Part shown: in pieces, positions 172 through 13,337 of the stretch
Layout of the letters: every line of letters begins with the position of its first letter
How positions within the stretch are numbered: position 1 is the first letter of the stretch
Origin: Deltaproteobacteria bacterium
GTDB taxonomy: Bacteria > Desulfobacterota > BSN033 > UBA1163
Reading direction: 5' to 3'
Assembly: GCA_016875155.1 (NCBI GenBank)
Contig: VGSD01000023.1
Coordinates: 1-13,337, forward strand
DNA length: 13,337 nucleotides
Made by a program: the position numbers and the translations under genes
The notes under the pieces: model-generated
Told to the model about the DNA's origin: nothing
The model's input: only the letters and a program-made list of their open reading frames with translations
The model's database searches: none

Positions 172-1335
172 TTAAGAGACCGGATGGATCTTCTCGTGGA
201 TGAAGATCTTCCTCTTCTCAAGTTCCTTGAAAACTTCTGAAGAATCAAAGGCGAGTTCCGGAATGATCACCCCTTTGGCATTGACTTTACCAGAGGCCAG
301 GATCTGAGTCCCGATGGCCATGGGGATGCCCACACACCGGGTATAAGCCCTGAGCTTTTCCCACCCCTTTACTGATCCATCTGACGCAGGATGCGTATGG
401 GTCAGAATGTGTTGAACTTTTTCCCCACCCCTGGTGCCAATCACTTCAATGTGGAGGGAATATCCATAGAGGTCGGTCGTCTGCCCCTCGGAAGCCTGCA
501 TTAAGTAACTCCCAATGGCATCCATAATCTTAACCTTTACGTCCCCGACCTTAACCTTATCATTGCGCATGAAGCCCCAATCATAAAGGGCCTTGATCAA
601 CTGCATATTCTTGGGAGGCCAGGTCCCCCTGACCTCGATCAACCTCACCCCTTTATTTGAAAGGTACTGGGCAACCGTCTTTGTCTCTGCATGGGGAATG
701 ATATATTGCGGATGAGTCCCATAGGGTTGGGGGAGTTCGATCTCTCTCGGTCTGGAAAAAGGCGGGACCTGAATAAATTTGCCATCCTCATAAACAACTC
801 GACCCGGAAGGTCAGGATCATACTCGTAGGTCGTTGTCTCTGTGATCGAGGCGGAAAAGGCGATGGGTCGAAAGGCGCCATGGCTCACACGAACGATTTC
901 GACAGTCTCCATCTGATCGGCCGCATGCTTCACCATCATATCCGTGGTCCCCGGGGTCATCCCAAACCCAGGGACGTGGGTCTTTCCGTGGCGTTTAAAG
1001 CGTTGGTCGTATCGATACTCCTCTCCAAAGCCATTGAGATTGATCCCATGGCACCCTGCTTCAGCAATACACGCCGTGGATAGACCATTGAGGGAGATGG
1101 TGGTTCCATCCATGACAATGTCATAGTCCCGCATCAGTTTCACGGTCTCCTTTTTTTTCTTCACATCGACCTTCTTAAAATCGACCCTCGGATTATGAAG
1201 CCACTGCACCACCTCTCGACCGGCTTTCTGATTGAAGTCACCGATAGTGATCTTCTCAAAATTGGAAAACTCGACGAGATCCAAAGCAGCCTCCCTGCAG
1301 ATTTTCCCTGCCCCTCCCAAACAGAGCACTTTCAT
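172..1335 (-). CDS. Saccharopine dehydrogenase-like / lysine 6-dehydrogenase-like NAD(P) oxidoreductase
   Basis: This 387-residue protein has the layout of the saccharopine dehydrogenase family: an N-terminal Rossmann domain (about residues 1-120) and a C-terminal substrate domain. The glycine-rich loop reads LGGAGKIC (residues 6-13), so the third glycine of GxGxxG is replaced by Cys13. Asp33 lies at the expected end of the second beta strand, which usually favours NAD over NADP. The family oxidatively deaminates or reductively couples amino acids; the substrate here cannot be read from sequence. The start is supported by AAAGGAG nine bases upstream. It is the last complete gene of the minus-strand series, 253 bases after the transporter ATPase, so a role with the imported amine (for example recycling the amino group) is possible but only inferred. 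Confidence 0.75.
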   Translation of the reverse strand: MKVLCLGGAGKICREAALDLVEFSNFEKITIGDFNQKAGREVVQWLHNPRVDFKKVDVKKKKETVKLMRDYDIVMDGTTISLNGLSTACIAEAGCHGINLNGFGEEYRYDQRFKRHGKTHVPGFGMTPGTTDMMVKHAADQMETVEIVRVSHGAFRPIAFSASITETTTYEYDPDLPGRVVYEDGKFIQVPPFSRPREIELPQPYGTHPQYIIPHAETKTVAQYLSNKGVRLIEVRGTWPPKNMQLIKALYDWGFMRNDKVKVGDVKVKIMDAIGSYLMQASEGQTTDLYGYSLHIEVIGTRGGEKVQHILTHTHPASDGSVKGWEKLRAYTRCVGIPMAIGTQILASGKVNAKGVIIPELAFDSSEVFKELEKRKIFIHEKIHPVS

Positions 1336-1588: not shown

Positions 1589-2674
1589 TTACTGTCTCAT
1601 TAAAACATGGATATTCTCAGGAATGGATAAATAGATTTTCTCGTTCGTTTTGAAAACCCCAGTCTCCCTGGGATTGGACTGGTCAATGATGATCTTCTCT
1701 CCCATCACCTGAACGGTATACTTGGCCAGGGAGCCAACATACATTCCGATCTCCACATTTCCTTCAAAGACGTTCAACTTTGTTGCCGGTTCGGATCGAG
1801 AAATTTCAATGGTCTCTGGCCGAATCACCAACTTCACCTTTTCTCCCGCACTGAAGCTTCTCTCTGGGACGAATTGGATCTTTCCAATAGGAGTGGAGGC
1901 AATCGCCCGATTGAGCCCAATATCTAAGATGTCAACTACCCCGTCTAAAAAATTGACATATCCCACAAACGCCGCAATGAATTCATTGGTAGGATGTTCG
2001 TAGATTTCGATCGGAGGCCCAATCTGTTGGATCTCGCCATCCCGGAGGACGACAATCCGGTCTGAGATGCTCATCGCTTCAAACTGGTCATGGGTGACGA
2101 AGATGGTTGTGATCTTCAGCCGCTCCTGAAGCTTTCGAATCTCTCCCCGCATGATGAGCCGGAGGTTTGCATCCAAATTTGAAAGAGGCTCATCCAATAG
2201 CAAGACTTTCGGTTCAAGGCTCAGAGCACGGGCCACGGCCACCCGCTGTTGCTGGCCGCCGCTCAGTTTGTCAATCATCCTTTCTCCGAGCCCTTCTAAT
2301 TTGACTAATTTCAGTAACTCCTCAACCCTCTCCTGAATCTTATTTCTCTTCCATTTCTTAATCTTCAACCCATAGCTGATATTTTCAGCGACGGTCATAT
2401 GGGGAAAGAGGGCATAATTTTGGAAACAGATTCGGGTATCTCTCAAATTGGGAGGAAGATGGTCAATCCTCTGATTATCGAGAATCACCCGTCCTGAATC
2501 GAGAGGGGTAAATCCCCCGATGATCCGCAAAAGGGTGGTCTTCCCGCATCCGCTGGGACCCACGAAAGTCACCAGTTCCCCTTTCTTGATATCCAAGGTG
2601 ATGCCCTTTAAGACTTCGTTGTTGTCGTAGAATTTATGAATGTCCTCGAGAATGAGCATGGGGATGTAATTCAT
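1589..2674 (-). CDS. ABC importer ATPase, Fe3+/spermidine/2-aminoethylphosphonate type
   Basis: This 361-residue protein powers solute import with the adjacent permease. All nucleotide-binding motifs are intact: Walker A GPSGCGKTT (39-47), Q-loop Gln85, signature LSGGQQQRVAVARA (137-150), Walker B VLLLDEP (157-163) and switch His195. The C-terminal part (about 240-355) fits a TOBE-type regulatory domain as in PotA, FbpC and PhnT. Its ATG overlaps the permease stop codon by four bases (ATGA), which indicates translational coupling. An in-frame ATG five codons later is an alternative start. The substrate cannot be read from the ATPase; the neighbouring phosphonatase-like gene suggests an aminophosphonate, while iron or a polyamine are alternatives. 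Confidence 0.9.
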   Translation of the reverse strand: MNYIPMLILEDIHKFYDNNEVLKGITLDIKKGELVTFVGPSGCGKTTLLRIIGGFTPLDSGRVILDNQRIDHLPPNLRDTRICFQNYALFPHMTVAENISYGLKIKKWKRNKIQERVEELLKLVKLEGLGERMIDKLSGGQQQRVAVARALSLEPKVLLLDEPLSNLDANLRLIMRGEIRKLQERLKITTIFVTHDQFEAMSISDRIVVLRDGEIQQIGPPIEIYEHPTNEFIAAFVGYVNFLDGVVDILDIGLNRAIASTPIGKIQFVPERSFSAGEKVKLVIRPETIEISRSEPATKLNVFEGNVEIGMYVGSLAKYTVQVMGEKIIIDQSNPRETGVFKTNEKIYLSIPENIHVLMRQ

Positions 2675-4368
2675 ACGGCTTTGGAAACTCCCTTCTGTGT
2701 GGCTTCGAATCTGGACCTCTTGCTCAAGAAGTTGAGACCGATCATGCAGAGGATGACAATCAAAACCAGTTTCATCGTCGTTGCCGAAGCAAACCCAATC
2801 TCGCCATAGGCGGCGGCATCAAAGATCTTCACGGCAGCCAGCTCATAGCCCGGGCTGACGAGGAAGACCACGGCGCTCAGGGAGACGATGGCGGTCATGA
2901 AGGTATAGATAAATCCCGCAATAAAGGCAGGAAACATGATTGGCAACACAACCTTATAAAAGGTGGTTATGAAGTTCGCCCCCATATCCGCTGACGCCTC
3001 TTCGATTTCGATATTGATCTGATGGAGTTTGCTGATGCCTGCTTCTACACCAACAGCGAGAAAGCGGAAGACGCAATTGAGCGCCAGGATCATGATCCCC
3101 CCTGTCAATTTGATCGGAGGGGTGTTAAAGGCGAGCAGATACCCAATGCCAATGACCGTCCCCGGAAGGGCAAAGCCAGAAAGGGAGATCATTTCAATAA
3201 AGGACCGGCCGAAAAATTTCCCCCGGACGATCACATAGGAAAGAAGGAGGCCGATGATGGCGCCGATGAAAGCGGCAATCAAAGAGACCTTGATGCTGTT
3301 ATAGATCGCCCGGTTCGAATCGAAGTTCAAAATATGACTGAGCACGATCTCATTCTTGACGCCGAGAAGCTGGGTAAAAGAGGCGACCAGGACGACTCCG
3401 AAAGAGACGATGATGACCAGGGCGGTGACTCCGCTGATGATGAGAAATGGAACCTTCACAAGCGGGGTGATCTTTCTTGGCTCAGAGGCAACCGGTTTTC
3501 CCCCGATGGTCGTAAATTTTTTCCCGGTCAGCAGGTAGTTATGAAGAAAGAAGATGACAATGCAGGGGATGATCAGGATGACCGACAGGACGCTTCCCAT
3601 CTCAAAATCGGCCTCGCCGATGATCATCTGATAAGTGTCAGGAGCAAGAAAGGGCGTCCTGCCCCCCAGGATGGCCGCGTTCCCAAACTCGGCAATCGTC
3701 ATGACAAAGACAAGAAGCCCTGCCTTTAATATGCCGGGGGCCAATAGAGGAATGGTGATGGTCCGAATGATCTTTATTTCTGAAGCGCCCAGATCGTAAG
3801 CGCTCTCTTCTAAATTCGGATTCAGCGACATCAGCGTATTTTCGATCATCAGATAGGCCAGAGGGATGAACGCCAGAGTCTGGGCAATCACCACACCACT
3901 GAAACCATAGATGGACCAGTTCAACCCCAAGGCATTCGTCAATACTCCGTTCCTCCCAAAAAGGATGATCAGGGAAATGGCAAAAAGGTAGGGGGGGGCA
4001 ATCAACGGCAACAGGGTGAGCAATTTGAGAGGTTTTCGCAGAGCCATCGGCCCCCGTGTGGAAAGATAAGCCATGCAGAAGCCTACGATGAGACAGACGA
4101 TGGTATTGATCACACCAAGCAACAGGGTATTGATGAGGGACTGGAAATAATATCCTTTGACAAAGAATTTGAGGTAATAGGCAAGCGTCCAGCCTTGAGG
4201 GTCTTTGACGCTTTTGATCAGGACAGCAAGGATGGGATAGAGGAGAAAGATGGCAAGTAGCAGAAAGAGAATGGCAGCCAGGATATGAACCAACTCCGCA
4301 TTGATGAACGTTTTGACTTTTTCCGAGAGATTTCTCGGTTGAAGGGTGAGAATCTCTGCCTCTGCCAT
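2671..4368 (-). CDS. ABC importer fused double permease (FbpB / 2-aminoethylphosphonate type)
   Basis: This 565-residue inner-membrane protein is two binding-protein-dependent permease domains joined in one chain, with about twelve hydrophobic segments. Each half carries a cytoplasmic EAA loop that docks the ATPase: ESAYDLGAS...IPLL around residues 188-209 and EEASADMGAN...LPIM around 456-479. This fused design is typical of iron(III) and 2-aminoethylphosphonate importers. An in-frame ATG twenty codons upstream exists, but the start at 4368 is preferred because AAGGAG stands a few bases before it. The stop overlaps the ATPase start, and the binding-protein gene lies 270 bases upstream on the same strand. 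Confidence 0.88.
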   Translation of the reverse strand: MAEAEILTLQPRNLSEKVKTFINAELVHILAAILFLLLAIFLLYPILAVLIKSVKDPQGWTLAYYLKFFVKGYYFQSLINTLLLGVINTIVCLIVGFCMAYLSTRGPMALRKPLKLLTLLPLIAPPYLFAISLIILFGRNGVLTNALGLNWSIYGFSGVVIAQTLAFIPLAYLMIENTLMSLNPNLEESAYDLGASEIKIIRTITIPLLAPGILKAGLLVFVMTIAEFGNAAILGGRTPFLAPDTYQMIIGEADFEMGSVLSVILIIPCIVIFFLHNYLLTGKKFTTIGGKPVASEPRKITPLVKVPFLIISGVTALVIIVSFGVVLVASFTQLLGVKNEIVLSHILNFDSNRAIYNSIKVSLIAAFIGAIIGLLLSYVIVRGKFFGRSFIEMISLSGFALPGTVIGIGYLLAFNTPPIKLTGGIMILALNCVFRFLAVGVEAGISKLHQINIEIEEASADMGANFITTFYKVVLPIMFPAFIAGFIYTFMTAIVSLSAVVFLVSPGYELAAVKIFDAAAYGEIGFASATTMKLVLIVILCMIGLNFLSKRSRFEATQKGVSKAV

Positions 4369-4445
4369 CTTTCTCCTTAAACAATCTTTTTCAATGTGAT
4401 TTGTGTGATTTGAAACGACGGTGATCAATGCCGGTGAAAAAACTT

Positions 4446-4557
4446 ACCGGTAACGGCAACGAGGCCCGTTTCGTTATTAAAAGGTGACGTATATCGTCTT
4501 TTATTTCTTTAGACGTAACCCTAACCGGTAACCGAAACGGGCTTCGTAACCGTAACC
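4446..4557. repeat. Large inverted repeat between binding-protein and permease genes
   Basis: The left arm around 4448-4475 and the right arm around 4528-4557 are imperfect inverted copies, with the core cgaggcccgtttcg facing cgaaacgggcttcg (13 of 14 pair). A small GACG-TATAT-CGTC hairpin (4486-4498) lies in the loop. In an mRNA running from the binding-protein gene to the permease gene this would form a long stem. Such structures between binding-protein and membrane genes often set unequal expression, but here that is inference. The arm sequence recurs at 12279-12308. Confidence 0.65.
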
Positions 4558-4638
4558 TTAACCAATGAACCATAGACCAATCAGGAACGCATTCTTAATT
4601 TGTGGCCTACACTGTTTCAAAAGGTTAAGGTGTTACCT

Positions 4639-5634
4639 TTATTTAAACTCGGTCCTGAATTTTTCCTTCCAGACATCGTTCCACTTTGGCCGCATGTCTG
4701 CCGCATAACCGAGATCCAGCTTGATATATTTGGGAGCCACATCTCCGTAAAGGGCATTGGGCGCCGGACGGGGGGTGACATAACCGATTCCAGCCATCAA
4801 CTTGCTGAATTCAGGGGTTCCGTACACATCGATCACTTTCTTAACGGCATCCGCCATGGCTGTCCCCTTAAGAATGAAGACGAAGGTCCCATCGTAGCCG
4901 ATGCCTTCTTCAGGAACCGTCCAGAGAAGTGGAAAACCTTTATTCAGTCTGTCTTTCACATTCTCATCTGACGTAATTCCAAGAAGGAACTCCCCCCTAC
5001 CGACCAGGTCGGTTGGAGCATTTCCACTCCGTGTATAGTGATGGATGTTCTTGTCCAGGGCCTGGAGGAACTTCCATCCCTCTGCTTCGCCATAGAGTGC
5101 CAGGAAAGCGAAGCGGATCATATTGGCTGTCCCCGAGCTCAGGGGTGAAGGCATCACAATCTGATCCTTCCATTTCGGATCCAGAAGCTCTTTCCAGCTC
5201 TTTGGCATGGCATAGCCCTTCTCTTTTAACTTATCCCGATTCCCGACCAGAACAAACGAGAAATTGGAAATATTAAACCAGGATTTATCCTTATCGAGAA
5301 ACTCACCGGAAACGCCTCTCCAGGCCGGAGAATCATAAGGCACCGACCAGCCGTTTTTCTTCGCCATAAAGGCAAGCGGCGATCCGCAGCCGCTGACCAT
5401 ATCGGCATTGAAGTTCGGCGCTTCGGATTTGACCTTTGCCTCAATCTCTCCAAAGGACTGGAACGTCTGAAGGATGGAAATGCCCGTCTTTTCTTTGACA
5501 AAGTTTACGACTTTAACATTGTTCTCCGGAGAAAGTCCCATGTAGGCCCTGACGCTCTGTGCCTGGGCATCACTCATCATAAATGCTACAGAAAGAATTG
5601 CTATGAACACCATTAAACTTAACTTTCCTTTCAT
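4639..5634 (-). CDS. Periplasmic substrate-binding protein of the ABC importer
   Basis: This 331-residue protein begins with a classical signal peptide: basic MKGK, a hydrophobic core (about 6-20) and a cleavage site after AQA (residues 23-25). The mature part resembles the class II periplasmic binding proteins (iron/thiamine/aminoethylphosphonate group, similar in type to AepX or PhnS). It would capture the substrate in the periplasm and deliver it to the fused permease. The start is fixed by AAAGGAGG eight bases upstream, and a good sigma-70-like promoter lies at 5709-5736. No binding-pocket residues can be assigned with confidence, so ligand identity is open: an aminophosphonate is suggested by gene context, iron or another small anion is possible. 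Confidence 0.85.
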   Translation of the reverse strand: MKGKLSLMVFIAILSVAFMMSDAQAQSVRAYMGLSPENNVKVVNFVKEKTGISILQTFQSFGEIEAKVKSEAPNFNADMVSGCGSPLAFMAKKNGWSVPYDSPAWRGVSGEFLDKDKSWFNISNFSFVLVGNRDKLKEKGYAMPKSWKELLDPKWKDQIVMPSPLSSGTANMIRFAFLALYGEAEGWKFLQALDKNIHHYTRSGNAPTDLVGRGEFLLGITSDENVKDRLNKGFPLLWTVPEEGIGYDGTFVFILKGTAMADAVKKVIDVYGTPEFSKLMAGIGYVTPRPAPNALYGDVAPKYIKLDLGYAADMRPKWNDVWKEKFRTEFK

Positions 5635-5708
5635 ACCTTTTTCCTCCTTTCAAAATTTTAATCTTCCTCGTTTTAAATGTTTCCTCCAACCACCTCCTTT
5701 CTGATGCC

Positions 5709-5736
5709 ATTCTATCAATAATGAAAAAAAAGTCAA
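5709..5736 (-). promoter_or_regulatory. Sigma-70-type promoter for the binding-protein gene
   Basis: On the minus strand TTGACT (5736-5731) and TAGAAT (5714-5709) are separated by 16 bases; each matches the consensus at five of six positions. Transcription would begin near 5702 and leave a leader of roughly 70 bases before the ATG at 5634. This suggests the transporter genes can be transcribed separately from the enzyme genes upstream. Confidence 0.6.
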
Positions 5737-5790
5737 AAAAAGTTCTACCTATAACCTGTAATTTAAATCCGTAAACTGAGCAATATCCAT

Positions 5791-5861
5791 GTCATGCTGA
5801 AATTTTTTCAGCATCTCTCATTTTTGATAACCTATAGATCCTGAACCAAGTTCAGGATGAC
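5791..5861. repeat. GTCATGCTGAA-type palindromic repeat
   Basis: Outer arms GTCATGCTGAA and TTCAGGATGAC are inverted copies with one mismatch. Two perfect inner hairpins are present: TGCTGAAA/TTTCAGCA near 5795-5813 and ATCCTGAAC/GTTCAGGAT near 5838-5858. It lies just downstream of the GSA-aminomutase-like stop codon. Repeats of this general sequence are widespread as non-coding dispersed elements in bacterial genomes; a terminator role is possible but no T-run is seen. Confidence 0.6.
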
Positions 5862-5886
5862 GATTAGGGATTATGGTTCTGCTCCT

Positions 5887-7155
5887 TCATATTTTTTTGA
5901 GTACCTTCCGGCTGATGTCGATTAATTTCTGGATATCTTCTTCTGTGTGGGCGAGAGAGAGATACATCTTGGTCCCCATGGGATTTAAAAAGATTCCCTT
6001 TTCAAACAACCCCAGGGCAAACCTTCTTCCCTTCTGACGGTCGGCCCGGAAGGCTGCCCGATAATCCATCACCGGCTCTTCAGTAAAGAGAACTTGACAG
6101 AGAGGACCGTCCCCAAGCACCTGGCCAGTGATCTCCAGCTTTTGAAGGAGTGCTCGAAACTTCTCTCTTAACTTCCGCCCTAGATGATGAAGCCGTTCAT
6201 AAGCCCCTGGCTTTCGAAGTTCATTCAGGGTGGCCAGGCTTGCGGACACAGAGACAGGATTTCCTGCCAGAGTAGAGGCAAACCAGACATAGCCCTCTTT
6301 ACCCAGATTCGACTCAATACAGAGGTCGAGGATATCGGCTTTTCCGCAGACCGCTCCAATGGGATACCCCCCTCCCATAGCCTTCCCAAAAGCGGCAATG
6401 TCCGGAACGACTCCATAATACTCCTGAGCTCCACCATAGGCAAGACGGAATCCTGTGACCACTTCATCGAAGATCAGAAGGATCTTCTTCTCCCGCGTAA
6501 TCTGCCGGATGCCCTCTAAAAATCCTTTTGCAGGAGGGGTGCATCGCTGAAGTGGCTCCATAATGACACAGGCAATTTTTCCTTCATTCTGCTCGATGAT
6601 TTTCCGGGTCGTCTCCAAATCATTATAAGGAGCGATCAGTATCTCATCTTGAACCTGTTTGGAGATACCTGCAGAGGTAGGTTCTGGCCTGGGGAAAGGG
6701 AGGAGGCTCTGAGGAAAAAGGCTCATTACCCCAATATCGTGGGCACCATGATAAGCTCCCTCGAACTTCACCACTTTTGTCCTCTTTGAGAATGCCCGTG
6801 CGAATCGGATGGCATAGAAAGTGGCCTCTGTTCCGGAGGCCGCAAAACGAATCTTTTCAGCACAGGGGATTGCCCGGCTCAATTCTTTGGCCAGCTCAAG
6901 CACCTGTTCTGTCACATAGGAAAAACTCGACCCTTTAACAACTTGTTTTTTTACGGCTTTGATAATGGCAGGATGGGCGTGACCCAAGATGACAGAACCC
7001 CAGGAGATAGAATAATCGATAAACTCCTTTCCAAATACGTCATAGACCTTCGATCCCTTCCCGTGAGAGAGGACAGTGGAAAGCTCCCTCGTGAGGTTGA
7101 ATTCTCCAAGAGAGCCACCCGGGAAAAATTGAAACGAAAGGTCAACAGGATTCAA
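5887..7155 (-). CDS. Class III PLP enzyme, glutamate-1-semialdehyde aminomutase-like
   Basis: This 422-residue protein is a fold-type I, class III PLP enzyme. Lys258 in FGKAMGGGYPIGA is the expected Schiff-base lysine, Asp230 in FDEVVTGFR should contact the pyridine nitrogen, and YHGAHD (135-140) fits the cofactor-stacking region. The FPGG near residues 11-14 and overall layout resemble HemL, but the gene is not among heme genes, so a different amine substrate is likely. The start is TTG, supported by GGAGG seven bases upstream; the next in-frame Met is not until residue 144. It follows the other class III gene after 29 bases, so the two are almost certainly co-transcribed. Besides transaminase or aminomutase activity, an ammonia-lyase role like that of PbfA on hydroxy-aminoethylphosphonate is possible but unproven. 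Confidence 0.8.
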   Translation of the reverse strand: MNPVDLSFQFFPGGSLGEFNLTRELSTVLSHGKGSKVYDVFGKEFIDYSISWGSVILGHAHPAIIKAVKKQVVKGSSFSYVTEQVLELAKELSRAIPCAEKIRFAASGTEATFYAIRFARAFSKRTKVVKFEGAYHGAHDIGVMSLFPQSLLPFPRPEPTSAGISKQVQDEILIAPYNDLETTRKIIEQNEGKIACVIMEPLQRCTPPAKGFLEGIRQITREKKILLIFDEVVTGFRLAYGGAQEYYGVVPDIAAFGKAMGGGYPIGAVCGKADILDLCIESNLGKEGYVWFASTLAGNPVSVSASLATLNELRKPGAYERLHHLGRKLREKFRALLQKLEITGQVLGDGPLCQVLFTEEPVMDYRAAFRADRQKGRRFALGLFEKGIFLNPMGTKMYLSLAHTEEDIQKLIDISRKVLKKI

Positions 7156-7184
7156 CTTTTGACCTCCTCTAAGGCTAATGCCTT

Positions 7185-8525
7185 CTATCTCTTAGAAATG
7201 GCTTCATCTACAGCAGTGCAGGCTTTATCAATGACAGACAATCCTTCCATCAACTGCTCCTCCGTGATGCAGAGAGGGGGCGCGACGAAGATTACGTTCC
7301 ACCGGGAATAACCCGAAACGCCGTTCTCCTTACAATAGCTCAAGACGGCAGCGATGCTGGGATCTTTTTTCTCGTAGGTCTCCACCGTCCACGGGACTAA
7401 GGGTTCACGAGTCTTCTTGTCCTTGACAAATTCAATGCCGGCAAAAAGGCCCAATCCCCGCACATCGCCAATGCTCGGGTGTTTCTCCTTCATCTTTTCA
7501 AGGGTGACCATCAATTTCGTCCCCAGGACTCGGGAATTCTCGATCATCCCCTCTTCCTGATAAACCTTAATCGCGGCAATGCCTGCGGCGCAGGCGATCG
7601 GGTTTCCGAACTGAGTCAATCCGCCGTAATACATGTGGTCTTCAAAGTAATCAGCGATCTCTTCACTGACCACGGTCGCTCCAAGAGGCAAATAAGCTCC
7701 GTTGATCCCCTTGGCAAGCGTCATGATATCCGGCACAACATTCCAGTGGTCGCATGCAAACCACTTTCCCGTCCTTCCGAAACCGGTCATAACCTCATCA
7801 GCAATCAATAAAACCCCATACTCATCGCAGACCTTTCGAAGTCGTTGCATGTAGCCGTCAGGAGGTACAATCCGGCAGTTGCTTCCTGTGATTGGCTCGA
7901 CAATGATAGCGGCCACCTCCTTGGGCCCCTCCACTTCGATCACCTCCCGGATCTGATCAGCGCAGAAGACATTGCATTCCGGGTAGGTCTTACCAAAGAA
8001 ACATCGGTAACAGAAGGGATCCCACACCCGGATGATCCCAGGAATCCCGGGTTCATTTGCAAGCCTTCTCGGATCTCCTGTAATGGATAAGGCACCGTAG
8101 GTTGCTCCATGGAACGACCGCCATCGGGAGATGATCTTTGATTTTCCTGTAAAAGCTTTGGCCATCTTAATGGCATTCTCGTTGGCCACCCCCCCTCCGC
8201 AGGAGAGAAAGCTCTTGGTCAAATCGCCAGGAGTGATCTCCGCAATCATCCGGCACAGTTCCGCTCGGGTCTCGTTAGCAAACCCAGGAGCTACATAACA
8301 GATCTTTTCTGTCTCCTCTTTGATTGCTTCGATGATCTTGGGATGCTGGTGCCCTGCATTCACATTGAAGAGCTGGGAAGAAAAATCAAGATATCTCTTC
8401 CCTTTATCATCCCAGAAGACCGCCCCTTCTCCTCCGGTGATAATAAGGGGTTTGAAATCCTTCTGGGCTGTCCAGGTATGAAAGACATACTTCTTTTCAT
8501 TTTGAGCCACTTTTAAAGGATCCAT
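7185..8525 (-). CDS. Class III aminotransferase, taurine/omega-amino acid:pyruvate type
   Basis: This 446-residue PLP enzyme would move an amino group from an omega-amine to a keto acid, giving an aldehyde. Lys272 in LAKGINGAYLPLGA is the Schiff-base lysine, Asp243 in ADEVMTGFGRTG the pyridine-binding residue, and FHGATYGA (138-145) the cofactor-stacking loop. The whole-length pattern resembles taurine:pyruvate and beta-alanine:pyruvate aminotransferases. A four-cysteine cluster (Cys172, 175, 184, 188) follows the FHG region. The start has AAAGGAG about seven bases upstream. Directly upstream lies the phosphonatase-like gene, directly downstream the second class III enzyme, which suggests that it supplies phosphonoacetaldehyde in place of PhnW. 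Taurine as substrate, or an ammonia-lyase role like PbfA, are alternatives. Confidence 0.82.
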   Translation of the reverse strand: MDPLKVAQNEKKYVFHTWTAQKDFKPLIITGGEGAVFWDDKGKRYLDFSSQLFNVNAGHQHPKIIEAIKEETEKICYVAPGFANETRAELCRMIAEITPGDLTKSFLSCGGGVANENAIKMAKAFTGKSKIISRWRSFHGATYGALSITGDPRRLANEPGIPGIIRVWDPFCYRCFFGKTYPECNVFCADQIREVIEVEGPKEVAAIIVEPITGSNCRIVPPDGYMQRLRKVCDEYGVLLIADEVMTGFGRTGKWFACDHWNVVPDIMTLAKGINGAYLPLGATVVSEEIADYFEDHMYYGGLTQFGNPIACAAGIAAIKVYQEEGMIENSRVLGTKLMVTLEKMKEKHPSIGDVRGLGLFAGIEFVKDKKTREPLVPWTVETYEKKDPSIAAVLSYCKENGVSGYSRWNVIFVAPPLCITEEQLMEGLSVIDKACTAVDEAISKR

Positions 8526-8602
8526 CTGCTTCTCCTTTCACTGTTATAAAAATTTATTGCTTTAATTCTTAGAAGAAGTTAGTCAAGAAATCTAAATAAT
8601 CC

Positions 8603-8680
8603 AAATCCCCCTCAATCCCCCTTTTACAAAGGGGGAGGCATTTCTTCTCCCTTTAGCAAAGGGAGGTCGGGAGGGATTTT
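8603..8680. repeat. C/G-rich palindromic repeat
   Basis: AAATCCCCCTC at the left faces GAGGGATTT at the right, and two inner hairpins (CCCCCTTTTACAAAGGGGG and CTCCCTTTAGCAAAGGGAG) lie between them. It occupies most of the gap between the phosphonatase-like and aminotransferase genes. A weak TTGACT at 8586-8581 on the minus strand could be a -35 box for the aminotransferase, but no convincing -10 follows it. Confidence 0.6.
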
Positions 8681-8708
8681 ATAAACTCTTTTTCAAACGA
8701 TTAAAATG

Positions 8709-9437
8709 TTATAAAAATTCTTTTTCAATCAACTCTGGGAGATCGGCTACGCTTGGAATCACGTGGGTATGCCAGTATCTTCCCCAATCAGTCACAGGTC
8801 GGGGACCACTCAACACCCCAATCACTCCACGGCATCCGGCATTGCGGCCTTCCAGCATATCCGCAGGCGTATCTCCGATCTTGATCACCTCATGGACACT
8901 CTGGATATTGAGCTGCGTCATCGCATAGAAAATCATAAATGGAGCTGGCCGGCCGATCTCTCCGGGAATGTGCTCCACATCCACTGAGAGATCCACCAGA
9001 CCATTTCTCACCCAGCCCAATCCCTCCATGATGGCATCCGTGATCAAGCGGTGGAATCCCGTATCCGTCGCCACTTTGATCCCATGCGCATGGCACCATC
9101 TGAACGTATCCGAAGCTCCAGGGACCTCTTTGCACTGCTTCCGGTAATATTCAAGCATAATCTCCTGATAGCGATCGAAGACCTTCTTGGCTTGTTCATA
9201 AGTTTCCGGGTCTTTGATCTTCTCAAAGTCCTCGATCTCAATCTTCCGCCCCATTTCCCTGGCGATGAGGAATTGATAGAGATGAATCTTATTCGTCCCC
9301 ATATGATAGAGAATCTCCTCTGGGGTGGTCTTCAGTTTAAACTCCTGGGCTGCTAGGTATAGGCAATCCCTCACTCCGGTGTCGTCATAGACGGTTGTCC
9401 CTGAAAGATCAAACATGACCATGCTTATTTTTCCCAT
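8709..9437 (-). CDS. PhnX-like HAD hydrolase (phosphonatase family)
   Basis: This 242-residue protein is a haloacid dehalogenase-superfamily hydrolase closest in pattern to phosphonoacetaldehyde hydrolase, which cleaves phosphonoacetaldehyde to acetaldehyde and phosphate. Motif I is DLSGTTVYDD with nucleophile Asp10; Ser12 stands where PhnX has Ala and ordinary HAD phosphatases have an acid/base Asp. The cap segment MGTNKIH (46-52) places Lys50 on the Schiff-base Lys53 of PhnX. ATDTGFHR (123-130) matches motif II, GRPAP (162-166) the PhnX Arg160 region, and KIGDTPADM (186-194) the metal-binding Asp pair. It is about 25 residues shorter than typical PhnX. The start has GGAGG about eight bases upstream. 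It is divergent from the LysR gene, whose product probably controls it. Related phosphonatase-like proteins of uncertain substrate exist, so exact specificity is open. Confidence 0.8.
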   Translation of the reverse strand: MGKISMVMFDLSGTTVYDDTGVRDCLYLAAQEFKLKTTPEEILYHMGTNKIHLYQFLIAREMGRKIEIEDFEKIKDPETYEQAKKVFDRYQEIMLEYYRKQCKEVPGASDTFRWCHAHGIKVATDTGFHRLITDAIMEGLGWVRNGLVDLSVDVEHIPGEIGRPAPFMIFYAMTQLNIQSVHEVIKIGDTPADMLEGRNAGCRGVIGVLSGPRPVTDWGRYWHTHVIPSVADLPELIEKEFL

Positions 9438-9497
9438 GAAAGCTCCTCCGTCTTTAATCCATCAGTTATTGGTTTGAGTCATACGAATATATTTTTA

Positions 9498-9587
9498 TAC
9501 CCCTCTTTGGCAAAGAGGGGTACGGGGAGATTTTCCAAACGTATTTTAAAATCCCCCTTCATCCCCCTTTGCCAAAGGGGGATAAAA
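9498..9587. repeat. Pair of C/G-rich perfect palindromes in the divergent promoter region
   Basis: Two hairpins lie side by side: 9498-9522 (core CCCCTCTTTGGCAAAGAGGGG, about 12-bp arms) and 9561-9583 (core CCCCCTTTGCCAAAGGGGG, 11-bp arms). The second is preceded by AAATCCCCCTTC, also seen at 8603. They separate the phosphonatase-like gene from the LysR promoter. The remaining minus-strand sequence before 9437 is A/T-rich (TATAAAAATATATTC near 9484-9499) and could hold the promoter, but no clear -35/-10 pair stands out. Confidence 0.65.
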
Positions 9588-9621
9588 AGAACATCATTAA
9601 CTGGTTACTTTTATCTTCATG

Positions 9622-9650
9622 TTGAATTTTACCCGGTCTTATCCTATATT
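9622..9650 (+). promoter_or_regulatory. Sigma-70-type promoter for the LysR gene
   Basis: TTGAAT (9622-9627) and TATATT (9645-9650) are separated by exactly 17 bases; they match the consensus at four and five of six positions. Transcription would begin near 9657, about 40 bases before the ATG at 9698. Confidence 0.5.
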
Positions 9651-9662
9651 ACTCAAAGTAAT
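9648..9662. promoter_or_regulatory. Probable LysR-type operator (T-N11-A palindrome)
   Basis: ATTACT-CAA-AGTAAT is a perfect 15-base palindrome containing TTACTCAAAGTAA, which fits the T-N11-A pattern bound by LysR-type regulators. It overlaps the end of the proposed -10 box and the start point of the lysR promoter, the classical position for autorepression. It lies about 210 bases upstream of the divergent phosphonatase-like gene. Confidence 0.5.
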
Positions 9663-9697
9663 AAACCTTGTCGTTCCCATAACCAATCTTTATAAAA

Positions 9698-10630
9698 ATG
9701 AACTTTCATCAACTCAAATCTTTCTATTTCGCCGTGAAATATGGGAGCCTCAGCGCTGCAGCCGATGCCCTCTATATCACCCAGCCTGCTGTGACAAAAC
9801 AGATTCAACAACTCCAGGCCACTTATGGAGTAAAACTTCTAAACCGATTCGGCAAAAAGATGGTCCCCACCGATGCCGGAGAAGTCCTCTTCGATTTTGC
9901 AGATAAAATCTTTCAGTTCGAAAGTCAGGCTGAAGAGAGTCTTCGCGATTTTCAACAGCGCAAAAGCGGCCGCCTCCGGATCCATGCGAGCGAGAGCTTC
10001 GGCGCCTACTATCTTCCCTTTATCATTAACCTCTTCAGGAAAAAATATCCAAAGATCCACATCTCCGTCAATATCTTTCCCAATCAGGAGATCGTCGAAA
10101 ACACGGTCAAACTGGAAAACGATATGGGGTTTATTTCTTACCCCATTGAACACAAAAAATTATTAGCCCAGGAGATATTAGAAGACAGACTCGTCCTCAT
10201 CGTTCCCACTAGCCATCCCTTGGCTAAGAAAAGGTTTCTGGAGCCTCGCCAATTGGATGGGCAGTCCATCGTCATGCACGAAAGGGGGTCTGCCTCTCGC
10301 GAGATCGTTGACGGATTTATCAAGCGGCATAACATCTCTGTTTCGATTCCCCTGGAGCTTTCCAATAACGAAGCCATCAAAAGGGCGGTCGAAGAGGGAA
10401 TCGGCCTTTCCCTCATTTCAGAACATGTGGTCAAAGAGGAGGTGAAAAGAAAGAAGCTGAAATCGATCCCCCTCATTGATCCAGCTTTGATACGAAAATT
10501 TTATCTGATCTACCACAAGGAGAAATATCTCTCTCAACCTTTTCAGATGTTTATCAGCATGGTCAATCAATGGGCCTCAGAATATCGTAATGCATACGCC
10601 GGGAAACCAACTCTCCCAAACCAATCCTGA
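9698..10630 (+). CDS. LysR-type transcriptional regulator
   Basis: This 310-residue protein has the standard LysR layout. The N-terminal winged helix-turn-helix covers about residues 1-60, including SLSAAADALYITQPAVTKQI (17-36), and an effector-binding domain of periplasmic-binding-protein fold begins near GRLRIHAS at residue 90. It is the only complete gene on the plus strand, divergent from the phosphonatase-like gene and convergent with the aldehyde dehydrogenase gene, the usual arrangement for a local pathway regulator. No strong Shine-Dalgarno is seen, but the ATG at 9698 gives the normal LysR N-terminus. The effector is unknown; a pathway amine or aldehyde is a reasonable guess. Confidence 0.9.
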   Translation: MNFHQLKSFYFAVKYGSLSAAADALYITQPAVTKQIQQLQATYGVKLLNRFGKKMVPTDAGEVLFDFADKIFQFESQAEESLRDFQQRKSGRLRIHASESFGAYYLPFIINLFRKKYPKIHISVNIFPNQEIVENTVKLENDMGFISYPIEHKKLLAQEILEDRLVLIVPTSHPLAKKRFLEPRQLDGQSIVMHERGSASREIVDGFIKRHNISVSIPLELSNNEAIKRAVEEGIGLSLISEHVVKEEVKRKKLKSIPLIDPALIRKFYLIYHKEKYLSQPFQMFISMVNQWASEYRNAYAGKPTLPNQS

Positions 10631-10723
10631 GAGAATAACCTCCAGATTTTACATAAGCCTTTTACAAATTAATGCCCATTCCCTGAGGGTGCCTATGAAC
10701 TGTGAAAATCGATAAGGGTTAAG

Positions 10724-10819
10724 GGTGACGATGCTCGTATCGAAGCACGAACCTCGATGCTAGATGCTCGAGTTTCAAGTTTCGGATGACGAGCCTCGAT
10801 ACGAGCTTCGACAACGACA
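10724..10819. repeat. Palindromic repeat, copy A, downstream of the dehydrogenase gene
   Basis: The ends carry inverted arms GCTCGTATCGA and TCGATACGAGC. Its first 22 and last 24 bases are identical to the ends of copy B at 12337-12443, in the same orientation, while the centre differs. It starts 15 bases after the dehydrogenase stop codon and lies between two convergent genes, so a transcript-end role for both is possible. The middle is built from degenerate variants of CTCGA/CGAG words. Confidence 0.75.
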
Positions 10820-10834
10820 TCCCCAATTTTTTAA

Positions 10835-12235
10835 CTAATCTTTTCCCCACTTCTTGAAATAGTTTCCGAAAAGTTCTTCGTCCGGAGGCATATATTCTTC
10901 CACAGGAACCGATAGCCAGGTATAGTTGAGGAAATTTCTGTAATTGATATTTTCGCTTATCATATTGCCAGCCCAGGTTCCGCAACCAAGGCTCTCGGTC
11001 CAGATTTGGCCATTGTACCAGCTTCCTGTATTGACCAGACAGTGAGGCATATTGCACTCCACTCGTCCCACCTTGGCCCGGATGGCAAGCTCCTCCATTC
11101 GCTCCACTCGGTTGGAGTGAAGGGAAACAGAATGGCCAATCCCTGAGAATTCAAGAATCTTTTCGAGACGATTGACCATCTCGTTAAAATCGTTCCATTT
11201 CCACACCGTTAGCACGAGGCTCAATTTCTCACCGGAGAATCTGTCCTCAGGTCCGATCTTTTCACCCATGACCATCAGGAATTTTGTTCCAGAGGGGGGC
11301 TTGATTCCAGCGGCTTCAGCAATAATGGGAACAGACCTGCCAAAGATGTCTCGATTGATCGTCTTTCCATCAGGCCAGAGCGCCTTTCTTACTTTCTCGC
11401 GTTCCTCGGTCGTGCAGAGGTATCCGCCCTCCTTCTTCAAGAGGTCCATAAATTTATCGTAAATGGGTTCGTAAATAGCGACCGCATTCTCGGAAGAACA
11501 CGAAGTGGAGTTATTGGCTGTTTTGGAGCGCATGATCTTATTGGCGGCTGCAGGAAGGTCTGCTGAATCATCAACAATCGAAACGACATTGCCTGCCCCA
11601 ACCGTGTGGGCTGGTTTGCCGGCTGCATAGACCACTTTGATCAGAGCGGCTCCGCCTGTTGCCATGACAAAGTCGACGTTCTTCATCAATTCCTGCGTCT
11701 TTTCGTTTGAGGGATATTGGATGCATTGAAACAAATCCTCAGGGGCGCCAATCTTTTTAAGGGCTTTTCGCGCAATTTCAACCGCCATATAAGAACACTG
11801 CTTGGTTCTCGGATGCGGAGAGCAGATCATCGCATTTCGGGTTTTTAAAAGACTGAGGCCAATGGTACAGACCGTTCCCTCTGGATTGGTCATTGGAACG
11901 ACATTGGCCACCACACCCATGGGTTTGGCGTAGACCTTGATTCCCTTTTTCTTGTCTTCTCGGACCAGCCCGCAGGTCTTCACTCCCTTGAAGTCATTAA
12001 TGGTCCCTCGCACCTTGCTCCTGATCTTACTGATCTTGTCTTCATAGACACCGATGAGGCCTTCATCCACGGCAGCCTTAGCCATGGCTTTTACATTTTC
12101 ATCTTTCTGCCATTCCCAGCCCACAGCCGCACACATCTCATCCACTTTTTCCTGGGGCCAGTATTCCACGATCTCAAACGCTTTTTTCGCCCTATGGTAC
12201 ATCTCCTGAATATCGTCCTTATGGTCTTGCGGCAT
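10835..12235 (-). CDS. CoA-acylating aldehyde dehydrogenase (acetaldehyde / sulfoacetaldehyde type)
   Basis: This 466-residue protein belongs to the acylating aldehyde dehydrogenases, which oxidise an aldehyde with NAD(P) and CoA to an acyl-CoA. Cys246 in NNSTSCSSENA aligns with the catalytic Cys of the GTICASEQ motif in AdhE-type enzymes, and the general-base Glu of hydrolytic aldehyde dehydrogenases is not apparent. ATGGAALIKVVYAAGKPAHT (191-210) followed by VGAGNV matches the usual ATGG...GKPA..VGPGN region. SPHPR (139-143) is also a family mark. The overall look is close to SauS (sulfoacetaldehyde dehydrogenase, acylating), but with a phosphonatase nearby acetaldehyde to acetyl-CoA is equally plausible. 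The start has AAGGAGG eight bases upstream. It follows the citrate-synthase-like gene by 264 bases and is flanked by two direct repeats. Confidence 0.82.
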   Translation of the reverse strand: MPQDHKDDIQEMYHRAKKAFEIVEYWPQEKVDEMCAAVGWEWQKDENVKAMAKAAVDEGLIGVYEDKISKIRSKVRGTINDFKGVKTCGLVREDKKKGIKVYAKPMGVVANVVPMTNPEGTVCTIGLSLLKTRNAMICSPHPRTKQCSYMAVEIARKALKKIGAPEDLFQCIQYPSNEKTQELMKNVDFVMATGGAALIKVVYAAGKPAHTVGAGNVVSIVDDSADLPAAANKIMRSKTANNSTSCSSENAVAIYEPIYDKFMDLLKKEGGYLCTTEEREKVRKALWPDGKTINRDIFGRSVPIIAEAAGIKPPSGTKFLMVMGEKIGPEDRFSGEKLSLVLTVWKWNDFNEMVNRLEKILEFSGIGHSVSLHSNRVERMEELAIRAKVGRVECNMPHCLVNTGSWYNGQIWTESLGCGTWAGNMISENINYRNFLNYTWLSVPVEEYMPPDEELFGNYFKKWGKD

Positions 12236-12499: not shown

Positions 12500-13337
12500 T
12501 TATTCCTTCCGATCTTCTGGTTTTGGAACCGGTCTGTCCGCAGGGCCGTCATAATATTTGGGCCCCTGGATGGAGAGATCGAGAAGATTGATCATCTTCG
12601 TCGTCCGCGATGCCCTCCAGGCTTTTTCCCTTGTCATCTCCTCAATGGCATGAGCCCCGCAACTGAACCCGCGGCAGAGAACTCCAATGGCCCAGGCCGC
12701 TAGCGGACTGAATCCCAGGTCCATAAAGACCGAGTTGCCACCGCCGATCACGTTGGTCCAGACCTTCTTTCCATTGATCTTCTCAAACGCCTTCTCAATC
12801 TCAATCTGCAAATCGTGAAACTTTCCGGCGACTCCCAGGTCTCTTGCCATCTTCATAATCCGGATCGCTCTCGGATCGCCGTGAATATGCTGGGGCTGCC
12901 CCAGACCCATGATGTTCTTCCCTTTATGGTCTTTGACCAGTTGCTCAGCGATCTGCGCGAGGGTCCACCCATTTTTCTCACCCATGTCCATATATTTATG
13001 GACCATGATCCCGTGCAGATGCCCCGGACCATGAGCCTCGCCAAAAGTCATGATGCCTGCTGCAATGGCTGCATTGAGGGCCGGTCTTCCGGAGGCGCAG
13101 CATCTTGCGGTCAGCGTCGAAGGGGACATGGCATGTTCCATGAATTCCACCATAAAGAAGTTAAGCATCTTCTCTTCGTTAACCTTTGGAAGCCTCCCCT
13201 GGAAAAGCAGAAAAACGGCTGCCGCAAAGCTCCACCCTTTTTCAGCCATCTCCGTCGTATCGTACCCTCTCAGGACGATCTTATCTGCCGTCTTGTAGGC
13301 AATCGAGGTTTGCCAGTGGAACGGCTCCCTCCCTGTC
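12500..13337 (-). CDS. Citrate synthase / citryl-CoA lyase-like protein, 5' end beyond window
   Basis: The reading frame is open to the right window edge; upstream of the Met codon at 13249 it continues with ...YKTADKIVLRGYDTTE, a segment typical of the citrate synthase N-terminal region, so that Met is internal and 13337 is not the true start. The visible part follows the family: FQGRLP, MSPST, FGEAHGPGHLHG, DPRAIRIM and DLGFSP..A in order. Counting from that Met, His73 (AHGPG) retains the first catalytic His, but Gln118 in GLGQPQHIHGDPRA replaces the second (normally GHP or GHR), and Ile168 in NVIGGG replaces the catalytic Asp (normally NVDG). The reaction is therefore uncertain. It precedes the acylating dehydrogenase on the same strand, which suggests that the two share a CoA-thioester intermediate. 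Confidence 0.75.
   Translation of the reverse strand, partial: TGREPFHWQTSIAYKTADKIVLRGYDTTEMAEKGWSFAAAVFLLFQGRLPKVNEEKMLNFFMVEFMEHAMSPSTLTARCCASGRPALNAAIAAGIMTFGEAHGPGHLHGIMVHKYMDMGEKNGWTLAQIAEQLVKDHKGKNIMGLGQPQHIHGDPRAIRIMKMARDLGVAGKFHDLQIEIEKAFEKINGKKVWTNVIGGGNSVFMDLGFSPLAAWAIGVLCRGFSCGAHAIEEMTREKAWRASRTTKMINLLDLSIQGPKYYDGPADRPVPKPEDRKE

Follow-up and report, generated by a model that had tools for sequence, protein, structure and literature searches.

A phosphonatase-type gene cluster in which a class III transaminase may replace PhnW

Can 2-aminoethylphosphonate (AEP) be degraded by the PhnW-PhnX route, in which a transaminase acts first and phosphonoacetaldehyde (PAA) is then hydrolysed to phosphate and acetaldehyde, when no PhnW is at hand? 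The question is raised by a 13,337-nucleotide stretch of DNA, here called the window, from a Deltaproteobacteria bacterium (contig VGSD01000023.1 of assembly GCA_016875155.1), which encodes a PhnX-like HAD hydrolase, an ABC importer, two class III pyridoxal phosphate (PLP) enzymes, a LysR-type regulator and a CoA-acylating aldehyde dehydrogenase (ALDH). We consider it rather probable that these genes form a catabolic operon for AEP or a close analogue, with the class III transaminase AT3 replacing PhnW, the HAD cleaving the phosphonate and the ALDH yielding acetyl-CoA, with substrates, order of steps and reaction directions all inferred. In the proposed scheme the importer would take in AEP, AT3, as a class III omega-amino-acid transaminase, would convert it to PAA, the HAD would cleave the C-P bond of PAA through a cap-lysine Schiff base to give phosphate and acetaldehyde, and the ALDH would convert acetaldehyde to acetyl-CoA, under control of the HAD-led operon by LysR; in some relatives, methyltransferases of the MtmB type may demethylate the amine ahead of the PLP step.

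The hydrolase and the company it keeps

The HAD (8709-9437, minus strand) matches the phosphonatase of B. cereus. It scores 113.9 against the PhnX model TIGR01422 (cut-off 220) and 164.5 against the PhnX-like model TIGR03351, for which four homologs give 159.6-176.6, all below the cut-off of 218.9; by its sequence the protein is a close but separate branch beside the PhnX-like family. In an alignment of 22 rows (the window and 21 loci), the equivalents of PhnX Asp12, Thr16, Lys53, Arg160 and Asp186 are kept in every row that covers the column concerned, and among these we take Asp12 to be the nucleophile and Lys53 the Schiff-base lysine of the cap. The predicted structure does not set the protein apart from other HADs. 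A first-pass annotation of this DNA had called the hydrolase PhnX-like, an assignment in keeping with the retained catalytic lysine, and every gene that it named is an intact open reading frame where it had been placed, with family scans in agreement. The cluster thus shares with the PhnW-PhnX pathway a transaminase, a hydrolase with the cap lysine and the presumed reaction order, but it differs in having a class III rather than a class V transaminase, a HAD below the family cut-offs and an attached acylating dehydrogenase.

The importer is likewise of a recognisable kind. A PotA/PhnT2-type ATPase (1589-2674), a double-length PhnU2-type permease (2671-4428) and a periplasmic binding protein of the PhnS2/SBP_bac_6 type (4639-5634), all intact frames on the minus strand, match PhnT2 at 364.7, PhnU2 at 302.2 and PhnS2 at 161.7; the aminoethylphosphonate-type importer of the first-pass annotation is therefore upheld as to kind, though all three scores lie below the respective cut-offs (457.7, 593.25 and 392.75).

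The locus counts below refer to the 19 loci (L001-L019) retrieved with the HAD protein as query. Four of them, L001, L002, L003 and L019, whose records bear the titles Deltaproteobacteria or Syntrophaceae, are held by genomes G001-G004, which are metagenome-assembled genomes (MAGs) of unstated completeness, as are the other related genomes. There the order of a gene for a citryl-CoA-lyase/citrate-synthase-like protein (CS), ALDH, LysR, HAD, AT3, a HemL-like class III enzyme, binding protein, permease and ATPase recurs at 78-99% identity, in full in L001 and L003 and truncated at contig ends in L019 and in L002, where the contig ends inside the HemL-like gene. Because it recurs in four related MAGs, the arrangement is not due to chance. 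All four genomes fall within a single order, of 17 genomes, and strong HAD matches were found in 4 of the 17, in 6 of 395 sampled genomes of the phylum, and in a single one of 343 genomes of another phylum, that of L009, the single genome being L009's own. The HAD is thus confined to few genomes, but its identity remains at 68-99% between records with the titles Deltaproteobacteria, Chloroflexi, Methylomirabilota, Verrucomicrobia, Sedimentisphaerales and Caldithrix, a pattern that suggests spread by horizontal transfer. One Desulfobacterales chromosome (CP070694.1) carries three copies in three separate places (L008, L010 and L011), 79-81% identical to that of the window.

Beyond these close relatives, the HAD and the ALDH keep company with recognised phosphonate families. 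At L009 (Sedimentisphaerales, Planctomycetota) the order is PhnW (486.1, cut-off 400.8), a Zn alcohol dehydrogenase, HAD (81% identical to the window), PbfA (622.1, cut-off 525), two MtmB, two CS and ALDH (62%). L015 has two CS, a PhnW/AepZ gene (421, cut-off 360.8) and ALDH (63%), and, further on past other genes, a phosphonate-binding protein, an ATPase, two permeases, HAD (80%), a Zn alcohol dehydrogenase and a NUDIX gene. At L059 a PhnW/AepZ gene stands beside ALDH (64%), with no HAD in the 20-kb stretch. Relatives of the acylating dehydrogenase that had been placed in the pathway on first reading thus accompany true PhnW/AepZ genes, and the cluster is fairly well supported by its context as a variant of the phosphonatase pathway.

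The class III enzymes and the dehydrogenase

AT3 (7185-8525, minus strand), the proposed replacement for PhnW on the strength of family scan, tree and linkage, belongs to the PRK06062 subfamily (547.1, cut-off 472). Homologs at E <=1e-120 occur in 25 of the 395 phylum genomes, only five of which (G001-G004 and G290) reach at least 65% identity; the same five are the only such genomes among 23 of the class, and in each of them HAD is the neighbouring gene, that of G290 lying at locus L056. No class V transaminase is present among the ten window proteins scanned, as the first-pass annotation had said of PhnW. That annotation had also made its case depend on the linkage of HAD and on the absence of phnW elsewhere. 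The HAD-AT3 linkage is conserved in the related genomes, and no PhnW/AepZ over the cut-off was found in these five MAGs, whose completeness is not stated (best TIGR03301 score 188.2 against 360.8; best TIGR02326 score in G001-G004 132.7 against 400.8). PhnW/AepZ genes over the cut-off occur in three of the four other HAD genomes (G005-G007, not G363), which fits a class III enzyme in PhnW's place, although the contrast of none in five with three in four is biased because G005 and G006 were chosen after class V genes had been seen there. PhnJ was found in none of ten genomes searched, the E. coli control being positive.

The nearest solved relative of AT3 is a taurine:2-oxoglutarate aminotransferase (PDB 6jix, 362.8 bits), many AT3 homologs are named taurine--2-oxoglutarate transaminase by one source, and the nearest named relative of the ALDH is likewise a sulfonate enzyme. 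One could thus read the window as a cluster for taurine or another sulfonate, in which AT3 is a taurine transaminase, the ALDH is SauS and the HAD is a bystander. We regard this as highly improbable: relatives of the HAD and of the ALDH are found in PhnW/PbfA clusters, Xsc over the cut-off occurs in none of G001-G004 and G290 (Xsc being the only sulfonate enzyme searched for), and the one Xsc-linked homolog (L124) falls in a separate, well-supported group of the AT3 tree. Lower-identity homologs were represented by 22 rows, ten loci of which were inspected: Xsc stands near L124 (833, cut-off 676.4) and PreA, a probable beta-alanine context, near L118 (537.7, cut-off 335); L121 has a transporter that matches TauC below the cut-off, and L122 one of the TRAP type, with nothing telling among the neighbours in the remainder of the ten. 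In a 41-row tree, of which 24 rows were picked from 120 listed database proteins, the window belongs to a 16-row group (support 99/99), for only 4 rows of which, the window included, HAD adjacency is shown; the Xsc- and PreA-linked homologs fall in a separate 11-row group (99/99), L056 lies in a third group, of 12 rows and with weak support (89/62), and PbfA has a very long branch. Seven columns, one of them against a gap, are common to the window and L056 groups and unlike eight taurine-linked and other rows; at five positions the AT3 groups have N84, C217, N275, Q305 and N308 where the taurine-linked rows have T, G, T, Y and H, and the PbfA of L009 shares N at 84 and 308 with the AT3 groups.

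Further linkage was sought in metagenomes as identical lengths of the longest contigs between protein groups, with HAD proteins collapsed at 90% identity. Seven lengths are common to the L056 group of AT3 and HAD rows (0.18 expected) and eight to the window group of AT3 and HemL-like rows (0.21 expected), and HemL-like rows share one with HAD rows.

Several observations weigh against the proposed AEP operon. The equivalents of PhnX His56 and Tyr128 are absent in the HAD, being Leu and Phe; the HAD, the ALDH and the importer proteins all fall under phosphonate or named cut-offs; and the two nearest solved relatives of the binding protein are named iron(III) transporters. With a taurine transaminase as the nearest solved relative of AT3 and SauS as the nearest model of the ALDH, both enzymes could serve sulfonates. 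Window-type AT3 is present in only 4 of the 19 HAD loci, and seven (L006, L011-L014, L016 and L017) show no window gene except HAD. In G363 the contig with HAD, of 6.6 kb, lacks AT3, and the genome holds neither an AT3 (at E 1e-150) nor a PhnW/AepZ over the cut-off, and G005-G007 were our own choice and were left out of the genome-wide AT3 search. In the metagenomes the window group of AT3 shares no length with HAD rows, a zero that is weak because near-identical HADs had been collapsed. A tight link is also opposed by a Zn alcohol dehydrogenase near HAD in ten of the 19 loci (L004, L009, L010 and L012-L018), two of the ten scoring 308.3 and 290.4 against TIGR03366 (cut-off 328.1); this possibly reflects a route from 2-hydroxyethylphosphonate to phosphonoacetaldehyde. 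These loci are mostly without PhnW or AT3 in view.

The second class III enzyme, the HemL-like protein (5887-7155, minus strand), is set apart from housekeeping HemL by family scan and genome comparison. As housekeeping HemL it was rejected: it scores 380.7 against TIGR00713 (cut-off 527.3), and each of G001-G004 and G290 has a separate HemL at 635-644. The stretches that we take to be the N-terminal stretch, the gating loop and the C-terminal active-site stretch of HemL are rewritten in it, the new version being conserved across the rows compared. The first-pass annotation had suggested that one of the two class III enzymes may act like the PbfA lyase, a role that the scores do not favour, since AT3 was rejected as PbfA (NF049939) at 310.7 against a cut-off of 525, PbfA is outside the 25 best of 69 models for the HemL-like protein, and a true PbfA is seen in L009. 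Probably the HemL-like enzyme serves as a further point of entry, for a different amino compound. It might instead be itself the AEP transaminase, or an aminomutase or racemase feeding AT3, with both enzymes phosphonate-active and AT3 directed at another aminophosphonate. The adjacency of the two genes in L001, L003 and L019, the shared metagenome lengths given above, the rewritten N-terminal and loop sequences and the presence of true transaminases among the solved relatives speak for such a division of labour, but the HemL-like gene of G290 is on a different contig from HAD-AT3, that of G400 occurs outside the six HAD genomes of the phylum sample, and it is AT3, not the HemL-like gene, that tracks HAD, so we consider it unlikely. 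G400 has its HemL-like homologs apart from HAD, in two HemL-like/MtmB pairs (L054 8291-10935 and L145 6729-8068, with partial MtmB matches).

The ALDH (10835-12235, minus strand, intact) has as its best model SauS, an acylating sulfoacetaldehyde dehydrogenase (NF047625, 483.5), from which it differs in lying below the cut-off of 600 and in having relatives with phosphonate neighbours in L009, L015 and L059. An order of steps in which the ALDH precedes C-P cleavage can therefore be envisaged, PAA being converted to phosphonoacetyl-CoA, as sulfoacetaldehyde is by SauS, and then used by CS. It would suit the likeness to SauS, the pairing with PhnW/AepZ apart from HAD in the L059 stretch and the position of the gene, which adjoins CS in L001-L003 and L009 and is separated from it by one gene in L015. 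Yet a HAD in the same cluster (L001-L003, L009 and L015) would compete for PAA, and the ALDH also resembles the acetylating acetaldehyde dehydrogenases PRK13805 (385.9) and TIGR02518 (312.4), in both cases below the cut-off, so that we hold this order to be quite improbable. CS itself, read from a near-identical copy in L001, carries Gln-Pro at the His-Arg of the citryl-CoA lyase 6hxp, and its chemistry may differ on that account; a pair of CS-type genes occurs in L009, L010, L015 and L018.

If the AEP operon reading is right, hydrolytic AEP degradation needs no PhnW and can run straight to acetyl-CoA, surveys based on phnW counts would overlook these organisms, and a group of transaminases that goes under the name taurine transaminase in one database gains a testable function. 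Ancillary or replacement enzymes feeding PAA have precedents in PbfA (described in PMC8154272) and PbfD (PMC10590968); PbfD2 is described as a PhnW surrogate in a pathway that is aerobic only. PbfD2 is an FAD enzyme, whereas AT3 is a PLP protein below the PbfA cut-off. Further context is offered by papers on a HAEP racemase (PMC12366243), AEP transporters (PMC8316502) and a marine survey (PMC9381506) and by a review (PMC10574752); among the titles and abstract openings returned by our searches of open-licence papers there is no description of this cluster.

MtmB-family proteins in related loci

A different element joins the cluster in some relatives. In L003 the ATPase is directly followed by MtmB, and MtmB by an MtgC-like corrinoid protein (TIGR02370 217.7, cut-off 215.3); in L056 the order is HAD-AT3-MtmB, and in L009 two MtmB follow PbfA, with no corrinoid protein seen beside MtmB in either of the last two loci. 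The four MtmB neighbours score 256.4-308.7 bits against PF05369, over the gathering score of 25. The position of pyrrolysine, which we take to be residue 202 of MtmB, is Met in the L003 protein (against X of 1l2q), and the MtmB genes of L056 and L009 contain no in-frame stop. Elsewhere, L054 has a corrinoid protein, a HemL-like gene and MtmB, L145 a HemL-like gene and MtmB, and L140 MtmB, a corrinoid protein and a class III homolog.

Since a PLP transaminase needs a primary amine, a demethylase ahead of the PLP step makes chemical sense. We propose, tentatively and with clearly less confidence than the operon itself, that L003, L056 and L009 encode an oxygen-independent route for N-methyl-aminophosphonates, in which an MtmB without pyrrolysine, with a corrinoid protein, would demethylate the substrate and the PLP enzymes would deliver PAA to the HAD; N-methyl-AEP may be an example of such a substrate. 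This route concerns relatives and not the window's own lineage: MtmB matches were found in eight of ten genomes, the two without them being G001, the window's nearest genome, and G004. Some of these genomes hold many MtmB genes, and G290 shows a striking expansion to fourteen family matches, some of them fragments and one with an in-frame stop.

N-methyl-AEP is reported to be frequent in nature and to be acted on by FAD enzymes (PMC10590968). PMC13044021 calls the function of the pyrrolysine-free MtmB family largely unknown and describes MtqB, a pyrrolysine-free homolog whose substrates, in a methanogen, are tetramethylammonium and choline. The MtmB-like proteins of L003, L056 and L009 are in the same family as MtqB, but they sit beside PLP enzymes and a PhnX-like HAD in bacteria. 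If the proposal is true, it gives a testable function, and a second role, to a group of pyrrolysine-free MtmB proteins, and an anaerobic counterpart to the FAD enzymes PbfB/C/D; no corrinoid-dependent breakdown of N-methyl-AEP is described in the titles and abstract openings returned by searches of open-licence papers aimed at AEP with corrinoid proteins or MtmB. Corrinoid demethylation before phosphonate cleavage is the part most worth testing, though it lies outside the window.

Regulator and flanking genes

All ten genes of the window keep their order in relatives, and only LysR (9698-10630, an intact frame by family scan) is on the plus strand. It scores 205.6 against phn_lysR (TIGR03339, cut-off 341.1) and 231.3 against its best model, NF040786 (cut-off 250). 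Two T-N11-A inverted repeats lie in the 260-bp gap between it and the divergent HAD operon and are seen again, in altered form, in relatives; from a match by eye to the consensus we presume them to be candidate LysR boxes: ATAAA-N5-GTTAT at 9679..9693 and ATTAC-N5-GTAAT at 9648..9662, both entered on the minus strand. The cluster had been described as lying under LysR, which suits the divergent HAD operon but not ALDH and CS, which lie beyond LysR, with ALDH convergent to it, and should therefore need a promoter of their own.

The span first assigned to the cluster, 1589..12235, places the named genes correctly but is overrun at both ends, by CS (12500-13336, minus strand, open at the window end) and by a saccharopine-dehydrogenase-like gene (172-1335, minus strand), both identified by reading frame and family scan. 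The latter follows the ATPase in the window, L001 and L019 and not in L003, and its membership of the pathway is uncertain; a 32% homolog of its product precedes the corrinoid gene in L054. NUDIX-type genes lie near the cluster in L001 (5338-5907), L002 (4961-5476) and L015 (11939-12502), two of them confirmed by Pfam.

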